From NCBI GenBank assembly GCA_017481925.1, contig JAFUOK010000072.1, positions 1-40,408 of the forward strand: a DNA stretch of 40,408 bases, read 5' to 3'. The stretch comes from Alistipes sp. GTDB taxonomy: Bacteria; Bacteroidota; Bacteroidia; Bacteroidales; Rikenellaceae. Shown here in pieces: positions 279-10,631 of the stretch (position 1 is its first letter; each line of letters starts with the position of its first letter). A program made the position numbers and the translations under genes. Under the pieces are notes generated by a model, which was given only the letters and a program-made list of their open reading frames with translations, was not told the DNA's origin and made no database searches.

Positions 279-1598
279 ATGACAACACGAGCATTTCAAA
301 AAGTATATACAAAGATTGACAATATCACCAAGGCAACCATCACGTTGCGCGCCACGGGCGTAGGTAACGATGAGTTGGCAACCGTCGGCGGCAAGCTAGC
401 GCAGGTGGTAAAGATTATGGGCGAGAACGTTACGCTGCAGGTATTTGCCGGCACCGAGGGTCTTGCCACAAACTCTGAGGTAGTGTTCCACGGCGAGGCT
501 CCCAAGTTGCGCGTGTCGGATAACCTGGCAGGTCGCTTCTTCAACGCCTACGGTGAGCCTTTGGAGGGCGGTGAGCCCATCGAGGGTGAGGAGCGTGAGA
601 TTGGTGGTCCTACGGTGAATCCGTTCCGCCGTCTGCAGCCTTCGGAGTTGATTGCTACGGGTATTGCAGGTATCGACCTTAACAATACCATCGTGTCGGG
701 TCAGAAGATTCCCTTCTTCGCCGATCCCGACCAGCCCTATAACGCCGTGATGGCCAACGTGGCACTGCGTGCTAAGGCTGACAAGATTATCCTCGGCGGT
801 ATGGGTCTGACGAACGACGACTTCCTCTACTTTAAGCAGGTATTCGAGAATGCAGGTGCTCTGGACCGCATCGTATCGTTCGTAAATACTACGGAGAATC
901 CTCCCGTAGAGCGTCTGTTGGTGCCCGATATGGCACTTACGGCTGCGGAGTACTTCGCCGTTGATAAGGGTGAGAAGGTATTGGTGCTTTTGACCGATAT
1001 GACCCTTTACGCCGATGCTCTGGCTATCGTATCAAACCGTATGGATCAGATTCCTTCGAAGGACTCTATGCCCGGTTCATTGTATTCAGACCTTGCAAAG
1101 ATCTACGAGAAGGCCGTACAGCTGCCTAACGGAGGTTCAATCACCATCATCGCCGTGACGACTCTGTCAGGTGGTGATATTACCCACGCTATCCCCGATA
1201 ACACGGGTTACATTACCGAGGGTCAGTTGTTCCTGCGTAACGATTCTGATACGGGTAAGGTTATCGTCGATCCGTTCCGTTCACTCTCTCGTCTTAAGCA
1301 GCTCGTAATCGGTAAGAAGACTCGCGAGGATCATCCTCAGGTGATGAATGCCTGCGTACGTCTGTATGCCGATGCAGCCAATGCAAAGACCAAGTTGGAG
1401 AACGGTTTCGACCTTTCGGACTACGATGAGCGTGCATTGAAGTTTGCCCACGACTATTCGGAGAAGTTGCTTGCTATCGACGTAAACATCGAGATCGAGC
1501 AGATGCTTGACACGGCTTGGACGCTGTTCGGCAAATACTTCTCGAAGGATGAGGTTGCTATCAAGGCTGAACTTATCGAAAAGTACTGGAAAGCGTAA
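279..1598 (+). CDS. ntpB: V-type ATP synthase subunit B
   Basis: This 439-residue protein is the regulatory, non-catalytic nucleotide-binding B subunit that alternates with A in the V1 hexamer. The N-terminal beta-barrel (about residues 1-75) is followed by the nucleotide-fold core. The P-loop region is degenerate (SGQKIPFF near residue 140), as expected for B, where A has GxxGxGKT. The segments NRMDQIPSKDSMPGS and GYITEGQLFLR are family hallmarks. Length is close to the usual ~435-460. ATG 279 follows the A stop by 8 bases and D follows after 25 bases, so the genes are co-transcribed. Nothing abnormal is seen in this gene. Confidence 0.96.
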   Translation: MTTRAFQKVYTKIDNITKATITLRATGVGNDELATVGGKLAQVVKIMGENVTLQVFAGTEGLATNSEVVFHGEAPKLRVSDNLAGRFFNAYGEPLEGGEPIEGEEREIGGPTVNPFRRLQPSELIATGIAGIDLNNTIVSGQKIPFFADPDQPYNAVMANVALRAKADKIILGGMGLTNDDFLYFKQVFENAGALDRIVSFVNTTENPPVERLLVPDMALTAAEYFAVDKGEKVLVLLTDMTLYADALAIVSNRMDQIPSKDSMPGSLYSDLAKIYEKAVQLPNGGSITIIAVTTLSGGDITHAIPDNTGYITEGQLFLRNDSDTGKVIVDPFRSLSRLKQLVIGKKTREDHPQVMNACVRLYADAANAKTKLENGFDLSDYDERALKFAHDYSEKLLAIDVNIEIEQMLDTAWTLFGKYFSKDEVAIKAELIEKYWKA

Positions 1599-1623
1599 CG
1601 CCAAAAGGATATAGTAAAACACT

Positions 1624-2232
1624 ATGGCAATTAAATTTCAATAGAATAAGACTTCGCTCGGCGAACTCGGCAAACAACTCAAAATACGCCGCGCTGCGCT
1701 CCCTACCATCAAGAGTAAGGAGTCGGCACTGCGTTCCGAGGTGAAGCGAGCGAAGGATACCGCACGCGACTTCCGCACTCGTATGGAGGCTTTGGCTTCG
1801 GAGTACGACTACATGGCGGCGCTGTGGGGTGAGTTCGATCAGTCGCTCGTTCGGGTGGCCGACGTCTCGCTCTCGGAGCAGAAGATCGCAGGCGTGAGAA
1901 TCCCCGTACTCGAGTCGGTGCAGTTCGATGAGAAGGAGTACGACTTGTTCTCATCGCCGGTGTGGTATGCCGATGGAGTTGATTTGCTGAAGCGTTTGGC
2001 TAAGTTGGGTGTGGAGTATGAGGTTTACAATCGCAAGATGGAGCTTCTGGACTATGCCCGCCGTAAGACCACGCAGAAGGTGAATCTCTACGAGAAGGTG
2101 CAGATTCCTGGTTATGAAGACGCCATTCGCAAGATCAAGCGCTTTATGGAGGATGAAGAAAACCTCTCGAAGTCGGCACAGAAGATTGTTAAAACTCGTC
2201 AACAGCAGGCTGCGGAGGGGTCTAAGTTATGA
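1624..2232 (+). CDS. ntpD: V-type ATP synthase subunit D, interrupted by an in-frame TAG at codon 7
   Basis: Subunit D is the central rotor shaft linking the V1 head to the membrane ring. Reading from ATG 1624 gives MAIKFQ, then TAG at 1642-1644, then NKTSLGELGKQLKIR and the rest of a normal D subunit in the same frame to TGA 2232. In total this is 202 codons, the family size. Homologues usually have Tyr at the position of the stop, one base from TAG. The two long coiled-coil helices expected of D are present. No ATG lies between the TAG and residue 40 of the full frame; the next candidate starts are GTG 1741 and ATG 1783, and either would remove much of the N-terminal helix. The rest shows no decay, and the last 4 bases overlap subunit I. 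Possible explanations are a sequencing or assembly error, a recent nonsense mutation, or read-through. TAG is a normal stop elsewhere in the window. Confidence 0.85.
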
Positions 2233-4091
2233 TAGTAAGAATGTCACGTTACGACTTTGTGCTGCTGGCAGCGCAGAGTGATGATTTTATCGCCCGTCTT
2301 CGCGAGTTGGGTCTGGTCGATATTACTACTACCGGCTGGGAGCCTCAGGAGCAGGATCGTCAGCTACTTACCGAGATCGACCACTATCGCAAGGCTGTTG
2401 AGTCTCTTAAGGCCTTTGCCTCGTCGGAGGAGTACACCTCGACCGATGCGAAGTATGCATGCGGTAAGCAGGCATACGAGGCCTATTCGGATTTGCGTCA
2501 GCAGAAGACCACGTTGCAGGGTGAGGTAGCCCGTCTGGAGAAACTTGCCGAGGAGTTGAAGCCTTGGGGAGATTTCGAGGGTGACGCTCGCGAGCGCCTT
2601 GCCGAGCAGGGTGTGGTGCTTCGTTACTATGTTGCGCAGACTTCTACCTATGATGCACATGCTGCCGAGTGGGCCGCCGATCTCACGATTGTGGAGATTG
2701 GTCGCGACTCATCGTCAGTATATTTTGTTGTTGTCTCTACGCCGGGTGCGGAGGTCGTTATCGACGCACAGGAGGTTAAGGCCCCCACGATGGACAGCCG
2801 TGCCGCTATGGCCGAGGCTGACAAGTGCCGTGCCGAGGTGACGGCTCTCAATGCGGAGTTGTCGGCTTGCGCTGCAAGTGTCGAGTCTATCGAGCAGGAG
2901 CTGGAGACGCTTACACAGAAGTTGCAGAATGTAAAGATTCACGGTACTGCTTCGGAGGCTGCCGACGGTCGTCTGGTAGTCCTGGAGGGTTGGGCCGAGG
3001 AAGATAAGTCGCAGGAGGTGGATAAGCTCCTGGATGAGTATTCAGGTGTTATCTATCTGAAGCGTAACCCCGAGCCCGAGGACGACACGCCCGTAAAGTT
3101 GAAGAACAACCGCTTTGCGCGTATGTTCGAGATGATCGGTGCGATGTATGCCCTGCCCAAGTATGGCACGATGGATCTTACACCCTTCTTTGCGCCGTTC
3201 TATATGCTCTTCTTTGCGATTTGCTTGAACGATGCGGGTTATGGTGCTATTCTGCTCTTTGCCGGTATTATGCTCTTGCTCAAGGGCGGAGCTTCGCTTA
3301 AGCAGGCGTCGTGGCTCACGATCTTCTGCGGTGGCGCAACTACGCTCTTTGGCCTCTATACGGGTTCGCTGTTCGGTATGAGCATCCCCGATATGCTGGG
3401 CTATGAGAGCATTGCCGAGTCACCGTTCCTCGACTTCCAGAACCAGTTCTTCTCATTGGCGCTGGCGTTGGGTGTTGTGCAGATTCTGTTCGGTATGTTC
3501 CTTAATATCTGCTTGCAGACTCGATTGTTCGGTTTTACCTCTACGTTCGGCCTTCTGGGATGGTTTATCATCCTGCTGTCGGGTTCGATCGCAGTAGGTC
3601 TGCCTATGATCAACGAGAATCTTGTGATCTCGTGGTTCACCGCTTCGTCGCCTGCATTCTATGCGGCTATGGGCGTAGGTGCCGTTCTGATGCTTCTGCT
3701 CAATAACATCAAGCGCAACCCGCTGATCAACTTCGGTTCGGGCTTGTGGGATGCCTATAACAACATTACGGGTCTGTTGAGCGACGTATTGTCGTATATC
3801 CGATTGTTCGCCATCGGTCTTTCGGGTGGTGTGTTGGCGCAGGTGTTCAACTCGCTGGCGATGGGTTTGACGGGCCTTGATGCAGGTATCGAGTCTTTCG
3901 GCGTTGGAACTATCTTCCAGATCGTTGGAGCTGCGGCTATCTTGTTAGTTGGTCACGGTATCAACCTCTTTATGTCGGCGATCTCTTCGTTCGTTCATCC
4001 TATGCGTTTGACCTTCGTAGAGTTCTATAAAAATGCAGGCTTCGAGATGACTACACGTTCGTTCGAGCCTCTTACAAATGAAAATAAATAA
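2229..4091 (+). CDS. ntpI: V-type ATP synthase subunit I
   Basis: This 620-residue membrane stator subunit (a-subunit homologue) forms the ion half-channels against the K ring. Residues ~1-310 are a soluble, coiled-coil-rich arm. From about 315 on there are roughly seven to eight hydrophobic helices, with the conserved FFAPFYMLFFAICLNDAGYG segment and, near the C-terminus, SYIRLFAIGLSGG, which carries the essential channel arginine. It starts inside the subunit D stop (ATGA overlap), which argues for translational coupling and that D is still expressed. ATG 2229 could be replaced by ATG 2241, four codons on. The length is usual for bacterial I subunits. Confidence 0.95.
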   Translation: MIVRMSRYDFVLLAAQSDDFIARLRELGLVDITTTGWEPQEQDRQLLTEIDHYRKAVESLKAFASSEEYTSTDAKYACGKQAYEAYSDLRQQKTTLQGEVARLEKLAEELKPWGDFEGDARERLAEQGVVLRYYVAQTSTYDAHAAEWAADLTIVEIGRDSSSVYFVVVSTPGAEVVIDAQEVKAPTMDSRAAMAEADKCRAEVTALNAELSACAASVESIEQELETLTQKLQNVKIHGTASEAADGRLVVLEGWAEEDKSQEVDKLLDEYSGVIYLKRNPEPEDDTPVKLKNNRFARMFEMIGAMYALPKYGTMDLTPFFAPFYMLFFAICLNDAGYGAILLFAGIMLLLKGGASLKQASWLTIFCGGATTLFGLYTGSLFGMSIPDMLGYESIAESPFLDFQNQFFSLALALGVVQILFGMFLNICLQTRLFGFTSTFGLLGWFIILLSGSIAVGLPMINENLVISWFTASSPAFYAAMGVGAVLMLLLNNIKRNPLINFGSGLWDAYNNITGLLSDVLSYIRLFAIGLSGGVLAQVFNSLAMGLTGLDAGIESFGVGTIFQIVGAAAILLVGHGINLFMSAISSFVHPMRLTFVEFYKNAGFEMTTRSFEPLTNENK

Positions 4092-4123
4092 CAAAAAGTA
4101 AAATTTAATAAAACTAAACAATT

Positions 4124-4579
4124 ATGAATTCAACAGCATTGATTTTGGCCTACATCGGCGTAGTATTTATGGTAGGCTTGGCAGGTATCGCTTCAGCAAT
4201 CGGTACTTCTATCTGCGGTCAGACAGCAGTAGGCGCAATGAAGAAGAACAGCGGCGCTTTCGGTAGCTACATGATCCTTTCGGCTCTTCCCGGTTCACAG
4301 GGTCTGTACGGTTTCGTATGTTTCTTTATGGTTCAGGGTTTGTTGACCGCTGACATCACCATGTTCCAGGCATCTGCAGTATTTGGTGCAGGTTTGTTGG
4401 TAGGTTTGGTAAACCTTATGGCTGCTTACTATCAGGCAAAGGTTTGTGCTAACGGTATCGCTGCTATCGGTAACGGTAACGACGTTATGGGTAAGACCCT
4501 TATCCTCGCTGCGTTCCCCGAGTTGTACGCTATCTTGACCGTTGCTGCTACATTCCTTATCTCTAACGCAGTAGCTTAA
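4124..4579 (+). CDS. ntpK: V-type ATP synthase subunit K (proteolipid ring)
   Basis: This 151-residue protein has four membrane helices arranged as two related hairpins (first ~4-75, second ~83-150). Only the second hairpin carries the ion-binding carboxylate, E133 in FPELYAIL; the first has Q59 in PGSQGLYG. This is the V-type pattern of one carboxylate per four helices. L55, S58, Q59, Y62, Q104 and E133 match the published Na+ ligands of Enterococcus hirae NtpK (L61, T64, Q65, Y68, Q110, E139) at a constant offset of six, with Ser replacing Thr. The ring therefore probably carries Na+ (inference). It lies 32 bases after subunit I and is the last gene of the operon. Confidence 0.95.
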   Translation: MNSTALILAYIGVVFMVGLAGIASAIGTSICGQTAVGAMKKNSGAFGSYMILSALPGSQGLYGFVCFFMVQGLLTADITMFQASAVFGAGLLVGLVNLMAAYYQAKVCANGIAAIGNGNDVMGKTLILAAFPELYAILTVAATFLISNAVA

Positions 4580-5546: not shown

Positions 5547-6359
5547 CTATGCACCCACGCTCATCAGCCAATGTTTGAACTCGGGTACGCGTGCCTTCGA
5601 GATGATAATCTTCTCGGGCAACTCCACACTCAGGTTCAGCGACAGACGACTACCGAACCATACGGTGATATCCTTCACCGCCTTACGGGCCACGATAAAC
5701 TGACGATTGGCACGGAAGAACTCCACCTCGGGGAGTGTTGATTGCAGACTCTCCAGCGTGCGGTCGATGATGTAATATGTGCCGTCGTAGGTCACTGCCG
5801 ACACCTTCTCGTTGGATGTGTAGAAGAATGCCACGTCGTCGATCGACAGGGGGATGATCTTATCCTTCTGATGTACCAGATATACTCGTTGATTATCCTT
5901 CGCGGTGGGGCGGGGCTCGGCGACCTTCTCGGCACGCACTTCGCGTATCATCTCCTCGATGCGGTTGTTATACTCCTTGCTCTCGCCGCCACTCAGCAGG
6001 TCGAACTTTTCGATTGCGTGGCGCATATCATCCTCCTTGATAGGCTTGAGGATGTAGTCGATGCTATTGACCTTGAAGGCACGCAGGGCGTACTCGTCGT
6101 AGGCTGTGGTGAATATGATGGGGACTTTGATATCTATACGGTCGAAGATGCGGAACGACTCGCCATCGGCCAGGTGAATATCCATAAAGACCAGGTCGGG
6201 TCGTGGCGACTGCTCGTCCTGGAAGTACTCGACACTCTCAGCAATGCTCTCCAGCACCCCCAGTACGTTGTACGACGGTGCCACATTGCGCAGTATAGCC
6301 TTCAGATTGACGGCTGCTGCAGTCTCATCCTCAATGATGAGTACACTCTTTTGTTGCAT
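5547..6359 (-). CDS. LytTR-family response regulator
   Basis: This 270-residue cytoplasmic regulator belongs to the LytR/AlgR type. Residues ~5-120 are a receiver domain: acidic patch E10-D11-E12, phospho-acceptor D60 in VFMDIHLADGE, T84/T85 switch region and the conserved K105-P106. Residues ~160-265 form a LytTR DNA-binding domain (VYLVHQKDKIIPLSIDDVAFFY, FFRANRQFIVARKAV). The linker is charged. It starts 26 bases after the histidine kinase gene and is its obvious partner. LytTR proteins bind paired direct repeats about 21 bp apart; such repeats lie just past this gene's stop, at 5462-5509, next to the small RNA promoter, making that RNA a plausible target. Confidence 0.94.
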   Translation of the reverse strand: MQQKSVLIIEDETAAAVNLKAILRNVAPSYNVLGVLESIAESVEYFQDEQSPRPDLVFMDIHLADGESFRIFDRIDIKVPIIFTTAYDEYALRAFKVNSIDYILKPIKEDDMRHAIEKFDLLSGGESKEYNNRIEEMIREVRAEKVAEPRPTAKDNQRVYLVHQKDKIIPLSIDDVAFFYTSNEKVSAVTYDGTYYIIDRTLESLQSTLPEVEFFRANRQFIVARKAVKDITVWFGSRLSLNLSVELPEKIIISKARVPEFKHWLMSVGA

Positions 6360-6385: not shown

Positions 6386-7855
6386 TTAGGCATTCTTGGG
6401 CTTCTGCAGGGGCAGGTGGATGGTGAACTCCTCATGGGTATCCACAACCTCAAACTCCTGTCCCGTAATGAGCAGCCAGCGGTTGCGCAGGTTCTCCAGG
6501 CCGATGCCCGTCGAGGGCTCTGCCTCAATCTTGGGCGTCTTGCGGTTCGACACTATAAGTGTTGTGCCCTCGGTGTATATCTTCACGTGCAGGGGCAACT
6601 TGCGCGTTATGGTGTTGTGCTTCACAGCATTGCCTATCAGAGGCTGCAGGGTCAGCGCAGGCAGTGTCCACGAGTTCAGCTCGGGGTCAATCTCGATGTC
6701 GAAGAATAGTTTATCGGCATAGCGCACCTTGAACAGCTCGCCGTAGGCGCGTGCAAACTCTATCTCCTCCTCCAGCGTAGAGATGGTGTTCTGTCCATTC
6801 TGAATGATGTAGCGGAACGTATATGAGAGCTGGTCGATATATGCCAACGCCTTCTCGTCACTCTTCTCGCGCACCAACATCGATAGCGAGTTCAGCGAGT
6901 TGAAGAAGAAGTGGGGGCTTATCTGACCCAAGAGCATGTTGTAGCGTGTCTGGATGTTCTCTGTGCGCAGATGCTCATTCTCGATCTGTATGCGTTGCTG
7001 TTTGAGTAACATGCCGTAGATACGGCCGTAGAGCAGGCAGACGATAATGATAACTATATATTTATAGATAGCCATCCAGTCGAGCAGGTTGTCCCTGTCG
7101 AGGTTCATAATCATCGTGATCTCGCTTGAACGGGGTCCGAAATCAACCACGGGAGTGAACATATAGCAACAGGCTATGACGAGCAGTGTTATGGCACAGC
7201 GAAGCGTATAGCGACGCACGGTGAAGTTGTTGGCGTCGAAACGGAAGGTCATCACCGTAAGCGCAATGAGCGACAGGCCGAAGTAGAATAGCAACTGAAC
7301 GATAAACTCCTCGTTTCGATTCGGACGGTCATAGACTACGGGGGCTATATCCTCGCCATTCTTACGCAAGGGGCGATCCAGCGAGGGGTTTGCCTGGCCA
7401 CGTGGACGGTTGAGCGTGCCGAGAATTTGGTCGCCATCCCGCAGGTTGTAGATAAATATAACGGCCTGATTGACAAAGACACTGTCGGTACGATACCAGT
7501 GCAACTCTTGTTGGTCGTTGTCACGATTATTATCCCTGTCACGGTCGTTGTCACGGTCCCTGTCATGGTCGTTGTTGTGCTCGTGCTCCTCCCATCCCGG
7601 GGGCATAATGAAGCCGTCGCCACTCTCGGCAATCAGATAACCATAGCCATCGGGCGAGATGTGCAGCGTACCCTCAAATTGGGGGCGGTAGCGTTCGCGT
7701 TCCACCTCTCGTTCCTGACGATACATCTCGCGGTCTCGTTCACGCTCATCGACAATCATCGATATGAGGTACGAGAAGTTCACAATCAGTGTCAGCACTA
7801 TGGCGGCCAGCGTGTTGGCTATGTAGGTCGAACGTCGGGTGTTAAGGTTAAGCAT
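6386..7855 (-). CDS. LytS-type sensor histidine kinase with an extracytoplasmic Rho RNA-binding-domain-like region
   Basis: This 489-residue kinase phosphorylates the adjacent LytTR regulator. Predicted topology is N-in: TM1 ~14-34, extracytoplasmic region 35-184, TM2 ~185-204, a basic cytoplasmic loop, TM3 ~217-236, a short outer loop and TM4 ~264-283. A coiled coil leads to the His_kinase domain with H315 (ISPHFFFNSLNSLS), N-box LQPLIGNAVKHN (404-414) and G-box GIGLENLRNR. The outer region begins with a charged E/R helix (36-57). Then comes EGTLHISPDGYGYL (61-74), an Asp/Arg/Asn-rich insert (91-118) and DSVFV..IYNLRDGDQILGTLNRP (124-151). This follows the Rho cold-shock/OB domain pattern (GVLE..DGFGFLR..DDIYV..FNLRTGDTISGKIRPP in E. 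coli Rho). Rho aromatic RNA contacts F62, F64 and Y80 align with Y71, Y73 and F127, but R66, D78 and Y110 are not kept. The ligand is unknown. Confidence 0.92.
   Translation of the reverse strand: MLNLNTRRSTYIANTLAAIVLTLIVNFSYLISMIVDERERDREMYRQEREVERERYRPQFEGTLHISPDGYGYLIAESGDGFIMPPGWEEHEHNNDHDRDRDNDRDRDNNRDNDQQELHWYRTDSVFVNQAVIFIYNLRDGDQILGTLNRPRGQANPSLDRPLRKNGEDIAPVVYDRPNRNEEFIVQLLFYFGLSLIALTVMTFRFDANNFTVRRYTLRCAITLLVIACCYMFTPVVDFGPRSSEITMIMNLDRDNLLDWMAIYKYIVIIIVCLLYGRIYGMLLKQQRIQIENEHLRTENIQTRYNMLLGQISPHFFFNSLNSLSMLVREKSDEKALAYIDQLSYTFRYIIQNGQNTISTLEEEIEFARAYGELFKVRYADKLFFDIEIDPELNSWTLPALTLQPLIGNAVKHNTITRKLPLHVKIYTEGTTLIVSNRKTPKIEAEPSTGIGLENLRNRWLLITGQEFEVVDTHEEFTIHLPLQKPKNA
7511..7585 (-). 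repeat. coding minisatellite for an Asp/Arg/Asn-rich insert
   Basis: Imperfect short tandem units (variants of GACCGTGACAAC on the coding strand) encode DRDRDN-like residues ~91-115 of the kinase. The tract lies inside the Rho-like domain, between its first and later strands, and looks like a disordered loop of variable length. Confidence 0.55.
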
Positions 7856-7956: not shown

Positions 7957-7975
7957 AAAAGCGGAGTTACTCCGC
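7957..7975 (-). terminator. hairpin built around the carbonic anhydrase stop codon, weak terminator
   Basis: GCGGAG-TAA-CTCCGC: the TAA stop is the loop of a perfect 6-bp stem, followed on the minus strand by TTTTATAA. It could attenuate transcription into the kinase, which begins 111 bases later. Confidence 0.45.
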
Positions 7976-8503
7976 CTCCTCCTTGTACCACGAGGCGTAG
8001 AGCTGGTAGTCGCGGGCGGTACGCTTGACGATGGTCTCGCGCTGCTCGGGCGTAATCTCCTTCATCTTCTTGGCAGGTACACCGGCATATACCGAGTTGG
8101 GCTCCAGCTGAGAGTTTGAGAGCACCAGGGCGTTGGCTGCGATGATGCAACCCTCGGGTACTACGGCATTGTCCAGAATGGTAGCACCCATACCTATGAG
8201 CACGCTGTCGCCGATCGTGGCACCGTGGATCGTTGCATTGTGACCTACCGACACGTCGTTACCGATGTGTGTCTGCGAGGGCTTGGGTGACTTGTCGTAG
8301 AGGGTGTGGATTACGGCGCCATCCTGAATGTTGGTGCGGTCGCCGATGGTGATCTTGTTCACGTCGCCACGCAGCACTGCGCCAAACCATATAGAGCAAT
8401 CCTTGCCGATGGTGGTGTCGCCGATAATCACAGCCGTGTCGGCCAAAAATGTATTCTCTCCAATTGAGGGCTTGTGTCCTCTTACCTCTTTAATTATTGC
8501 CAT
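7967..8503 (-). CDS. gamma-carbonic anhydrase family protein (hexapeptide repeat)
   Basis: This 178-residue left-handed beta-helix protein of the YrdA/CaiE/PaaY group forms trimers with metal at subunit interfaces. Hexapeptide turns run from about residue 12 to 140 (IGENTFLADTAVIIGDTTIG and onwards). The three zinc-ligand histidines of the family are present: H66, H88 and H93. A C-terminal helix follows. It starts 5 bases after the upstream protease gene, so it belongs to the mazG-protease-anhydrase unit. Activity as CO2 hydratase is not certain, since many relatives are inactive or act on other substrates. ATG 8503 gives the canonical N-terminus. Confidence 0.93.
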   Translation of the reverse strand: MAIIKEVRGHKPSIGENTFLADTAVIIGDTTIGKDCSIWFGAVLRGDVNKITIGDRTNIQDGAVIHTLYDKSPKPSQTHIGNDVSVGHNATIHGATIGDSVLIGMGATILDNAVVPEGCIIAANALVLSNSQLEPNSVYAGVPAKKMKEITPEQRETIVKRTARDYQLYASWYKEEAE

Positions 8504-9771: not shown

Positions 9772-10545
9772 CTACTCCTCTCTCTTTGCCGAGCGCCAGA
9801 GTGTGTCCAACTCCTCGGCCGTCATCTGCGAGAAGAGACGGTCGCCCGCCTCGGCCTCCATATGCTGGAAACGGCGGATAAACTTCTTGTTCGTACGCTC
9901 CAGAGCCATCTCGGGGTCGATGCCGTACAGGCGGCACATATTAATCAGCGCAAAGAACAGGTCGCCTATCTCGCTCTCGGTGCGCTCCTGATCGCCGCGT
10001 GCCATCTCGACCTCAATCTCTGCGATCTCCTCCTTGACCTTTGCCCATACATCCTCCTTCTGCTCCCAGTCGAAGCCCGACGAAGCAGCCTTCTCGCCCA
10101 CACGGAAAGCCTTGACCATGGCGGGTAGCGAGCGGGGTACGCCGCCCAGGATTCCGCCCTGACGCTTCTTCTTGCGTAGTTTCAACTCCTCCCAGTTCTG
10201 CATCACCTCGGCGGGAGTGTCGGCGTGTATGTCGCTATATACGTGGGGGTGGCGGTAGATGAGCTTGTCGCACTCGGCATCGGCTACGTCGCCAAAGTCG
10301 AAGCAACCCTGCTCCTCGCCAAGTTTCGAGTAGAAGACTACGTGCAGCAGCAAATCGCCCAACTCCTCCTTTATGCCATCCATATTAGAGTCGGTGATGG
10401 CGTCCACCAACTCGTAGGTCTCCTCTATAGTGTTATTGCGCAGCGATTCGAAGGTCTGCTCACGATCCCAGGGGCACTTTTCGCGCAGGGTATCCATCAC
10501 CTCGAGCAGTCGTGCTGCGGCTTTTAGTTTTTTTTCGTAGTTCAT
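9772..10545 (-). CDS. mazG: nucleoside triphosphate pyrophosphohydrolase MazG
   Basis: This 257-residue all-alpha NTP pyrophosphatase converts NTPs or dNTPs to NMPs plus PPi and so cleans the nucleotide pool. Two MazG repeats are visible. The first has CPWDREQTFESL, EETYELVDAI and EELGDLLLHVVFYSKL, containing the acidic Mg2+ ligands EExxE and ExxD. The second has ESEIGDLFFALINMCR with a degenerate first half, as in E. coli MazG. The length is typical for two-repeat MazG. It is the first gene of the minus-strand unit and has its own promoter box at 10568-10575. It is not the toxin-linked mazEF type; no toxin genes are present. Confidence 0.95.
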   Translation of the reverse strand: MNYEKKLKAAARLLEVMDTLREKCPWDREQTFESLRNNTIEETYELVDAITDSNMDGIKEELGDLLLHVVFYSKLGEEQGCFDFGDVADAECDKLIYRHPHVYSDIHADTPAEVMQNWEELKLRKKKRQGGILGGVPRSLPAMVKAFRVGEKAASSGFDWEQKEDVWAKVKEEIAEIEVEMARGDQERTESEIGDLFFALINMCRLYGIDPEMALERTNKKFIRRFQHMEAEAGDRLFSQMTAEELDTLWRSAKREE

Positions 10546-10567
10546 TCCAGTTAAAATTATCGTTCCA

Positions 10568-10575
10568 CAAAGTTA
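10568..10575 (-). promoter_or_regulatory. -7 promoter box of mazG
   Basis: TAACTTTG on the minus strand, 22 bases before the mazG start. No clear TTTG is found at -33. It faces away from an identical box at 10596-10603 that serves the plus-strand gene. Confidence 0.55.
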
Positions 10576-10595
10576 TGATTTTCATTCGAAAATAT

Positions 10596-10603
10596 TAACT
10601 TTG
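10596..10603 (+). promoter_or_regulatory. -7 promoter box of the GH20 gene
   Basis: TAACTTTG on the plus strand, 28 bases before ATG 10632. The -33 position has only TATG. The two divergent promoters are separated by 20 bases. Confidence 0.55.
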
Positions 10604-10631
10604 TAGAGAATAATTTTCTAAGATTTTACTT

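Follow-up and report, generated by a model that had tools for sequence, protein, structure and literature searches.

We found that a 40,408-nucleotide contig of an Alistipes species (assembly GCA_017481925.1, contig JAFUOK010000072.1; hereafter the window) encodes a LytS-like sensor histidine kinase into which an OB domain homologous to the RNA-binding domain of the transcription terminator Rho is inserted, between its first two transmembrane (TM) segments. Our data indicate that this OB-kinase architecture is real and well supported, and it is unreported as far as can be searched, as no report of a Rho-type OB domain in a kinase was found in the open-access PMC literature (titles and abstract beginnings). 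By profile and fold the domain belongs to the Rho_RNA_bind family, it lacks the cytosine-reading residues, and the protein is not a Rho factor. We favor, with moderate confidence, the reading that a Rho-type OB domain was captured once into the TM1-TM2 loop of a four-TM LytS-like kinase and is now its periplasmic, ligand-binding input domain. This suggests that a part of the gene-expression machinery has taken on a new use, sensing something beyond the cytoplasm.

A sequence-only reading of this DNA, made before any database search, had proposed a Rho-type OB fold in the kinase, and this is borne out by structure as well as by sequence profiles run in either direction. The Rho RNA-binding profile (PF07497; PDB 1a62, 1pvo) scored 24.8 bits on the whole kinase (E 1.9e-5), short of its curated cut-off of 27, and 29.2 bits on residues 36-184 alone, which exceeds it. 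The low score in the window is due to a low-complexity insert that splits the domain there; many relatives outscore it, the best kinase among the matches listed reaching 41.4 bits (1.9e-10). All 78 family members match PF07497 at E<=0.1 (best 5.5e-12), as do 62 of the 67 full-length members at E<=0.01. Within the window's own genome (1.9 Mb, 84 % complete), PF07497 matched nothing at E<=10 other than rho, a separate gene on contig C43 (E 1.2e-33), and two pieces of this kinase. When an alignment of the kinase OB domains (A2, 78 rows, built from 77 of the 80 loci; L088 was left out for want of a start, and L119 and L135 were missed by the motif filter) was compared with 27 Bacteroidales Rho OB domains, 72 columns aligned with a probability of 98.8 and an E-value of 1.2e-16. 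Against PDB sequences, A2 found Rho as the 13 best of 38 rows (1a62 at 8.9e-10). A profile of the kinase region (A1) matched at E<=1e-3 in 365 of the 393 genomes of the order, and its listed matches outside the genus were open reading frames (ORFs) of 405-772 amino acids aligned along the OB part, which is what Rho would give.

RNP motifs are common to cold shock proteins, and 29 of the 78 members also match OB_RNB (best 1.4e-6), as would be expected if the resemblance were due to chance or to a general cold-shock-type OB fold with no special kinship to Rho. The single-sequence search is also lenient to that view, since phmmer with the window domain reached Rho in the PDB only at E 0.6-0.8, after a Mediator subunit matched by the insert, which alone is insufficient to show Rho. 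However, Rho is the best match by a wide margin in the family-profile, Pfam and structure searches, while cold shock proteins and the OB domains of RNase II/R, which are cytoplasmic, are far more distant in sequence (in the PDB search, cold shock proteins and RNase II begin only at E 0.055). We rejected this origin, which we regard as next to impossible. Exported OB proteins (BOF proteins YgiW/SipA; NigD-like) differ in being separate proteins of other sequence families outside kinases; no BOF family appeared by name among the 22 families matched by the 78 members, and NigD_N matched one of them (E 0.058). Compared with Rho itself, the domain sits in a membrane kinase, is predicted to lie outside the cytoplasm and comes without the ATPase domain: Pfam found only PF06580 and PF07497 in the window kinase, and no C-terminal RecA-type ATPase domain.

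We next describe the residues of the former RNA-contact face, mapped on Escherichia coli Rho. The region named in the sequence-only reading (residues 59-180) corresponds exactly to 7681-7316, and every motif quoted there was recovered, namely G-T-L-H-I-S-P-DGYGYL at residues 62-74, DSVFV at 124-128, NLRDGDQILGTLNRP at 137-151 and NGEDI at 166-170. Its residue equivalents were also correct: the base-stacking aromatics F62, F64 and Y80 of Rho are kept as Y71, Y73 and F127, while R66, D78 and Y110 are lost to I75, S125 and N156. Across the 78 members, the F64 equivalent is always Tyr, the Y80 equivalent always Tyr or Phe, and the F62 equivalent Tyr (41), His (35) or Phe (2). The pyrimidine-recognizing pair is not kept in the OB domain of the kinases, with mostly V/I/L for R66 and Ser for D78 in 75 of the 78; Y110 is replaced by His in 59 and Asn in 17, and E108 is likewise replaced, by variable residues. 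In one subgroup (L086, L094, L129 and other Alistipes loci) a D[ML][HY]GYI[IV]C-type motif, often with CDC, replaces DGYGYL, and these cysteines adjoining the aromatic shelf are perhaps redox or metal linked.

Given the retained aromatics, the domain might still be a binder of short single-stranded nucleic acid or of nucleotides that reports DNA or RNA outside the cell, lysis of neighbors or leaked nucleotides; we consider this unlikely. Three of the six pyrimidine-recognizing residues of E. coli Rho are R66, D78 and Y80, and Thermus thermophilus Rho, which differs at all three, is described as still preferring C-rich RNA (PMC9908020); loss of R66 and D78 is thus not decisive for this domain family. 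Moreover, a conserved neighbor of the kinase is MazG, a nucleotide hydrolase. Against this, R66, D78, E108 and Y110 are all replaced, and the window equivalents of R87, R88 and K115 are F134, I135 and R161, whereas in E. coli Rho R88E is described as abolishing, and K115E as reducing, rut RNA binding (PMC11018626). MazG also adjoins orthologues that lack the OB domain, so its link with the kinase predates the domain or is independent of it, and we dropped the pairing of OB domain and MazG as evidence. The proposal that the captured domain makes the kinase an extracytoplasmic receptor, with which Alistipes senses nucleic acid or molecules containing nucleobases, is in our estimate likewise unlikely.

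We reasoned about the side of the membrane from predicted TM segments, called with a hydropathy threshold of 1.6 in the 67 full-length members. Four segments precede the kinase domain in 59 members and three in the remaining 8. The sequence-only reading had allowed that TM1 might be spurious, and had placed the domain facing away from the cytoplasm. TM1 is a strongly hydrophobic segment (mean 2.27), and the outside placement is supported, as a prediction, by three further TM segments, a positive-inside pattern and the OB-less orthologues. In the 59 four-TM members the net charge per residue is +0.157 at the N-terminus, +0.226 in loop 2-3, -0.04 in the OB region and +0.04 in loop 3-4; the positive N-terminus and loop 2-3 would put the OB region outside by the positive-inside rule. 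Because TM2-TM4 lie between the OB domain and the cytoplasmic kinase, this placement is independent of TM1. OB-less orthologues have a similar TM plan with a short loop at the OB site. Together these features indicate that the OB domain apparently faces the periplasm, on the outer side of the membrane. Were the topology wrong, a cytoplasmic domain could bind RNA as Rho does; Rho domains are cytoplasmic, the outside placement is predicted, and 8 of 67 sequences show only three segments over the threshold. Yet the odd number of segments between domain and kinase, the positively charged N-terminus and loop 2-3, the shared TM plan of OB-less orthologues and the loss of the RNA-specific charged residues make this very improbable.

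Searching for other kinases with the same region showed what a single sequence could not, that the OB domain is nearly genus-wide in Alistipes. From the named genome collection we kept 80 of 109 loci; carriers include the isolates A. montrealensis kh20, Alistipes sp. An66 and A. muris DSM 112343, which makes a chimeric assembly very improbable. Per-genome counts were tallied by hand from genome tables and match lists. Among the matches listed for 268 genomes of the family, the kinase-region profile has a best match of E<=2.9e-32 in 160 of the 180 same-genus genomes, while Rho itself gives about 1e-10 to 1e-14. Evidence is weaker in three further genomes: G542 and G553 have 530-amino-acid frames matching A1 at about 5e-14, G553 being assigned by that match alone, and the kinase of G557 is cut by a contig end. 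In the remaining 17, many of them incomplete, there is either no match or one to Rho alone. With PF07497, the orthologous kinase was matched in at least 33 of 37 same-genus genomes, the window's own included (61 genomes scanned), and in at least 24 of the 37 above the curated cut-off. Outside the genus, 12 of 88 genomes carry the OB kinase among the matches listed (one in g224, 11 in g226). Genome G452 carries two OB kinases (L205, L208). Separately, in G475 (L209, L213), G329 (L207, L211) and G341 (L206, L212) two Rho-sized ORFs each match the OB profile, which suggests second rho copies.

An orthologous kinase without the OB domain is present in g26, g216, g210, g223, g208 and g27 as an open frame of 351-447 amino acids. 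PF07497 was absent at E<=1 from all seven OB-less kinases scanned (L180-L186), the others being judged by eye, and MazG, the hexapeptide protein and the response regulator adjoin the kinase at these seven loci as well. A maximum-likelihood tree of the TM2-kinase part (42 rows: 21 of the 80 loci plus L187-L190, 13 OB-less and 4 outgroup) recovered the 25 OB rows as a single clade nested among OB-less ones (clade support 80/92, present in 80 % of bootstrap trees; outgroup 100/99). On the simplest reading of the tree, a single gain probably brought the OB domain into the TM1-TM2 loop.

The kinase otherwise resembles LytS/LytTR systems (BtsS/BtsR, LytSR; PF06580) in its PF06580 kinase domain, matched in all 67 full-length members, its His315 motif (P314 H315 F316, invariant in alignment A3, which used 66 of the 77 A2 loci) and its adjoining LytTR regulator, which starts 26 bp downstream of the kinase and accompanies it at all 80 related loci. 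Its sensor part is different. The 5-7 TM segments of LytS 5TM or BtsS 7TM sensors are not found in it and no 5TM family was matched in the window protein, while 7TMR-DISM_7TM matched one of 67 members (0.0015). BtsS is described as binding pyruvate within a 7-TM domain (PMC10653868), whereas this kinase combines four TM segments with a folded OB domain inserted between the first two. In an AF2 model of the full-length kinase (pLDDT 84.3, pTM 0.53), a helix of residues 6-54 runs unbroken from TM1, in which N26 F27 S28 Y29 are invariant (A3), through the linker, and an unbroken TM4 helix (260-311) points towards the kinase part.

We propose that the Rho-type RNA-binding OB domain was inserted into a short TM1-TM2 loop in the Alistipes lineage and would serve, on the periplasmic side, as kinase input. 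The ligand would sit on the former RNA-contact face, formed by the aromatic shelf Y71/Y73/F127 together with the family-new S125 and His/Asn156, and may be a nucleobase-like molecule, a sugar or a peptide. Its binding could shift the helix joining the OB domain to TM1, and this shift would reach His315 by way of the four-TM bundle and the long helix of TM4, with the LytTR regulator next in the path. The long linker helix of the model would also suit a structural spacer, or an interface for dimerization or for a partner such as a periplasmic or outer-membrane protein, rather than a receptor for a small ligand. Protein binding by such folds has precedent, as the exported BOF protein SipA is described as interacting with OmpA and antimicrobial peptides (PMC6370654), and the RNA face of Rho as also protein-binding, being blocked by Rof (PMC11018626). 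Conservation concentrated at the old base-contact positions is unneeded by a pure spacer, though an interface could need it, and we judge a spacer or interface role to be rather unlikely.

The constraint on that face is seen in the alignment. The six positions named in the sequence-only reading have a mean entropy of 0.82 bits, compared with 1.87 for the full set of 61; a fraction of 0.004 of random sets reached so low a value, or 0.012 once E108 was added. At 37 of the positions the majority residue of the kinases is not that of Rho, and among these the five contacts 64, 66, 78, 108 and 110 average 1.12 compared with 2.23 (0.0006). Low entropy at these contact positions indicates that constraint persists on the old binding face, with different chemistry. 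When the window is compared with its three nearest relatives, the OB core has a dN/dS of 0.026-0.130 and the kinase one of 0.06-0.09; against L067 the OB values are 0.27-0.31, with high dS.

Several points weigh against a captured periplasmic ligand-binding domain. The second entropy test (0.0006) was chosen after the first one, with a contact list taken in part from the sequence-only reading. The conservation seen at F64 and Y80 may have structural reasons, E108 is variable, and His stands at F62 in 35 of 78 members. The OB domain evolves faster than the rest of the protein (mean column identity 31 % in A2 compared with 55 % in A3), and in four pairs of the L081 group its dN/dS is 0.053-0.334, exceeding that of the kinase part in three. 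The outside placement is predicted topology, supported but not proven, and with a pTM of 0.53 the placement of domains in the model is unsure. Since the same neighbors surround OB-less orthologues, this kinase type can work without the OB domain. As for the single gain, it is recovered in only 80 % of bootstrap trees. An easy form of the reading is strained by divergent members such as L187 of G542 (530 amino acids), in which PF07497 is absent at E<=1; its assignment as an OB kinase comes solely from its match to A1 (5.3e-14) and from inspection by eye. Two OB-less g26 orthologues, L186 (4737-6077, +) and L183 (4941-6158, +), have long TM1-TM2 loops, and that of L186 holds DSNVYIREQNIRARYDR, resembling a remnant of an OB motif; PF07497 finds nothing in either, and as these loops could hold OB remnants, loss is possible.

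Our data suggest that a core RNA-binding module of transcription termination was recruited, and kept, as a likely extracytoplasmic kinase input in a common gut genus, which is relevant to workers on signaling or on Rho. Because orthologues with and without the OB domain occupy the same place and have the same neighbor genes, domain capture and ligand switching can be tested directly. Were the ligand a nucleic acid or nucleotide, gut commensals would have an environmental sensor of a new kind. The features of the locus are given below.

Table. Coordinates of the kinase, its parts and adjoining genes in the window (aa, amino acid residues of the kinase).
Feature	Position	Strand	Basis
LytS-like sensor histidine kinase, 489 aa	6386..7855	-	ORF; PF06580 E 1.3e-21; AF2 model
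TM1, aa 17-35, with family-invariant NFSY	7751..7807	-	hydropathy; alignment A3
Linker, aa 36-58	7682..7750	-	mostly helical in model
Rho-type OB domain, aa 59-170, PF07497 homologue	7346..7681	-	profiles, structure
RNP1-like motif DGYGYL, aa 69-74 (Rho D60-L65)	7634..7651	-	mapping on Rho
Low-complexity His/Asp/Arg-rich insert, aa 83-119	7499..7609	-	alignment; low pLDDT
RNP2-like motif DSVFV, aa 124-128 (Rho D77-V81; S125 for D78)	7472..7486	-	mapping on Rho
N156 (Rho Y110)	7388..7390	-	mapping on Rho
TM2, aa 184-202	7250..7306	-	hydropathy
TM3, aa 221-239	7139..7195	-	hydropathy
TM4, aa 257-275	7031..7087	-	hydropathy
His_kinase domain, aa 304-383	6707..6946	-	Pfam
Phosphoacceptor-motif residue His315	codon 6911-6913	-	alignment A3
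Cognate response regulator, receiver and LytTR DNA-binding domain	5547..6359	-	PF00072 3.7e-14, PF04397 3.9e-19
Hexapeptide-repeat protein	7967..8503	-	PF00132
MazG nucleotide pyrophosphohydrolase	9772..10545	-	PF03819

The gene neighborhood is conserved around the kinase. The hexapeptide-repeat protein, presumably gamma-carbonic-anhydrase-like, is a neighbor at 78 of the 80 loci, and MazG at 75. The intergenic region between mazG and a hexosaminidase gene (10546-10631) contains TACAAAGTTA...TAACTTTGTA, largely kept in seven aligned relatives, which we take to be probably two divergent, back-to-back Bacteroidota -7 boxes; if so, mazG-(protease)-hexapeptide-kinase-regulator may be one operon. 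Upstream of mazG, a LytTR-type repeat pattern was sought at 73 loci; among the nine listed it was matched at two (L065, L067), and it is absent from the window. Genes for a V/A-type ATPase lie beyond the response regulator (279-4579; PF00006/PF22919, PF01496), and adjoin it at only 2 of the 80 related loci.

The low-complexity insert is lacking in most relatives, and among the 30 rows of A1 a long insert occurs only in the window, L005 and L006. The insert is confined to the window and the relatives nearest to it, and it changes faster than the OB core (dN/dS 0.11-0.23 between the window and its three nearest relatives). It could act as a loop that binds metal.
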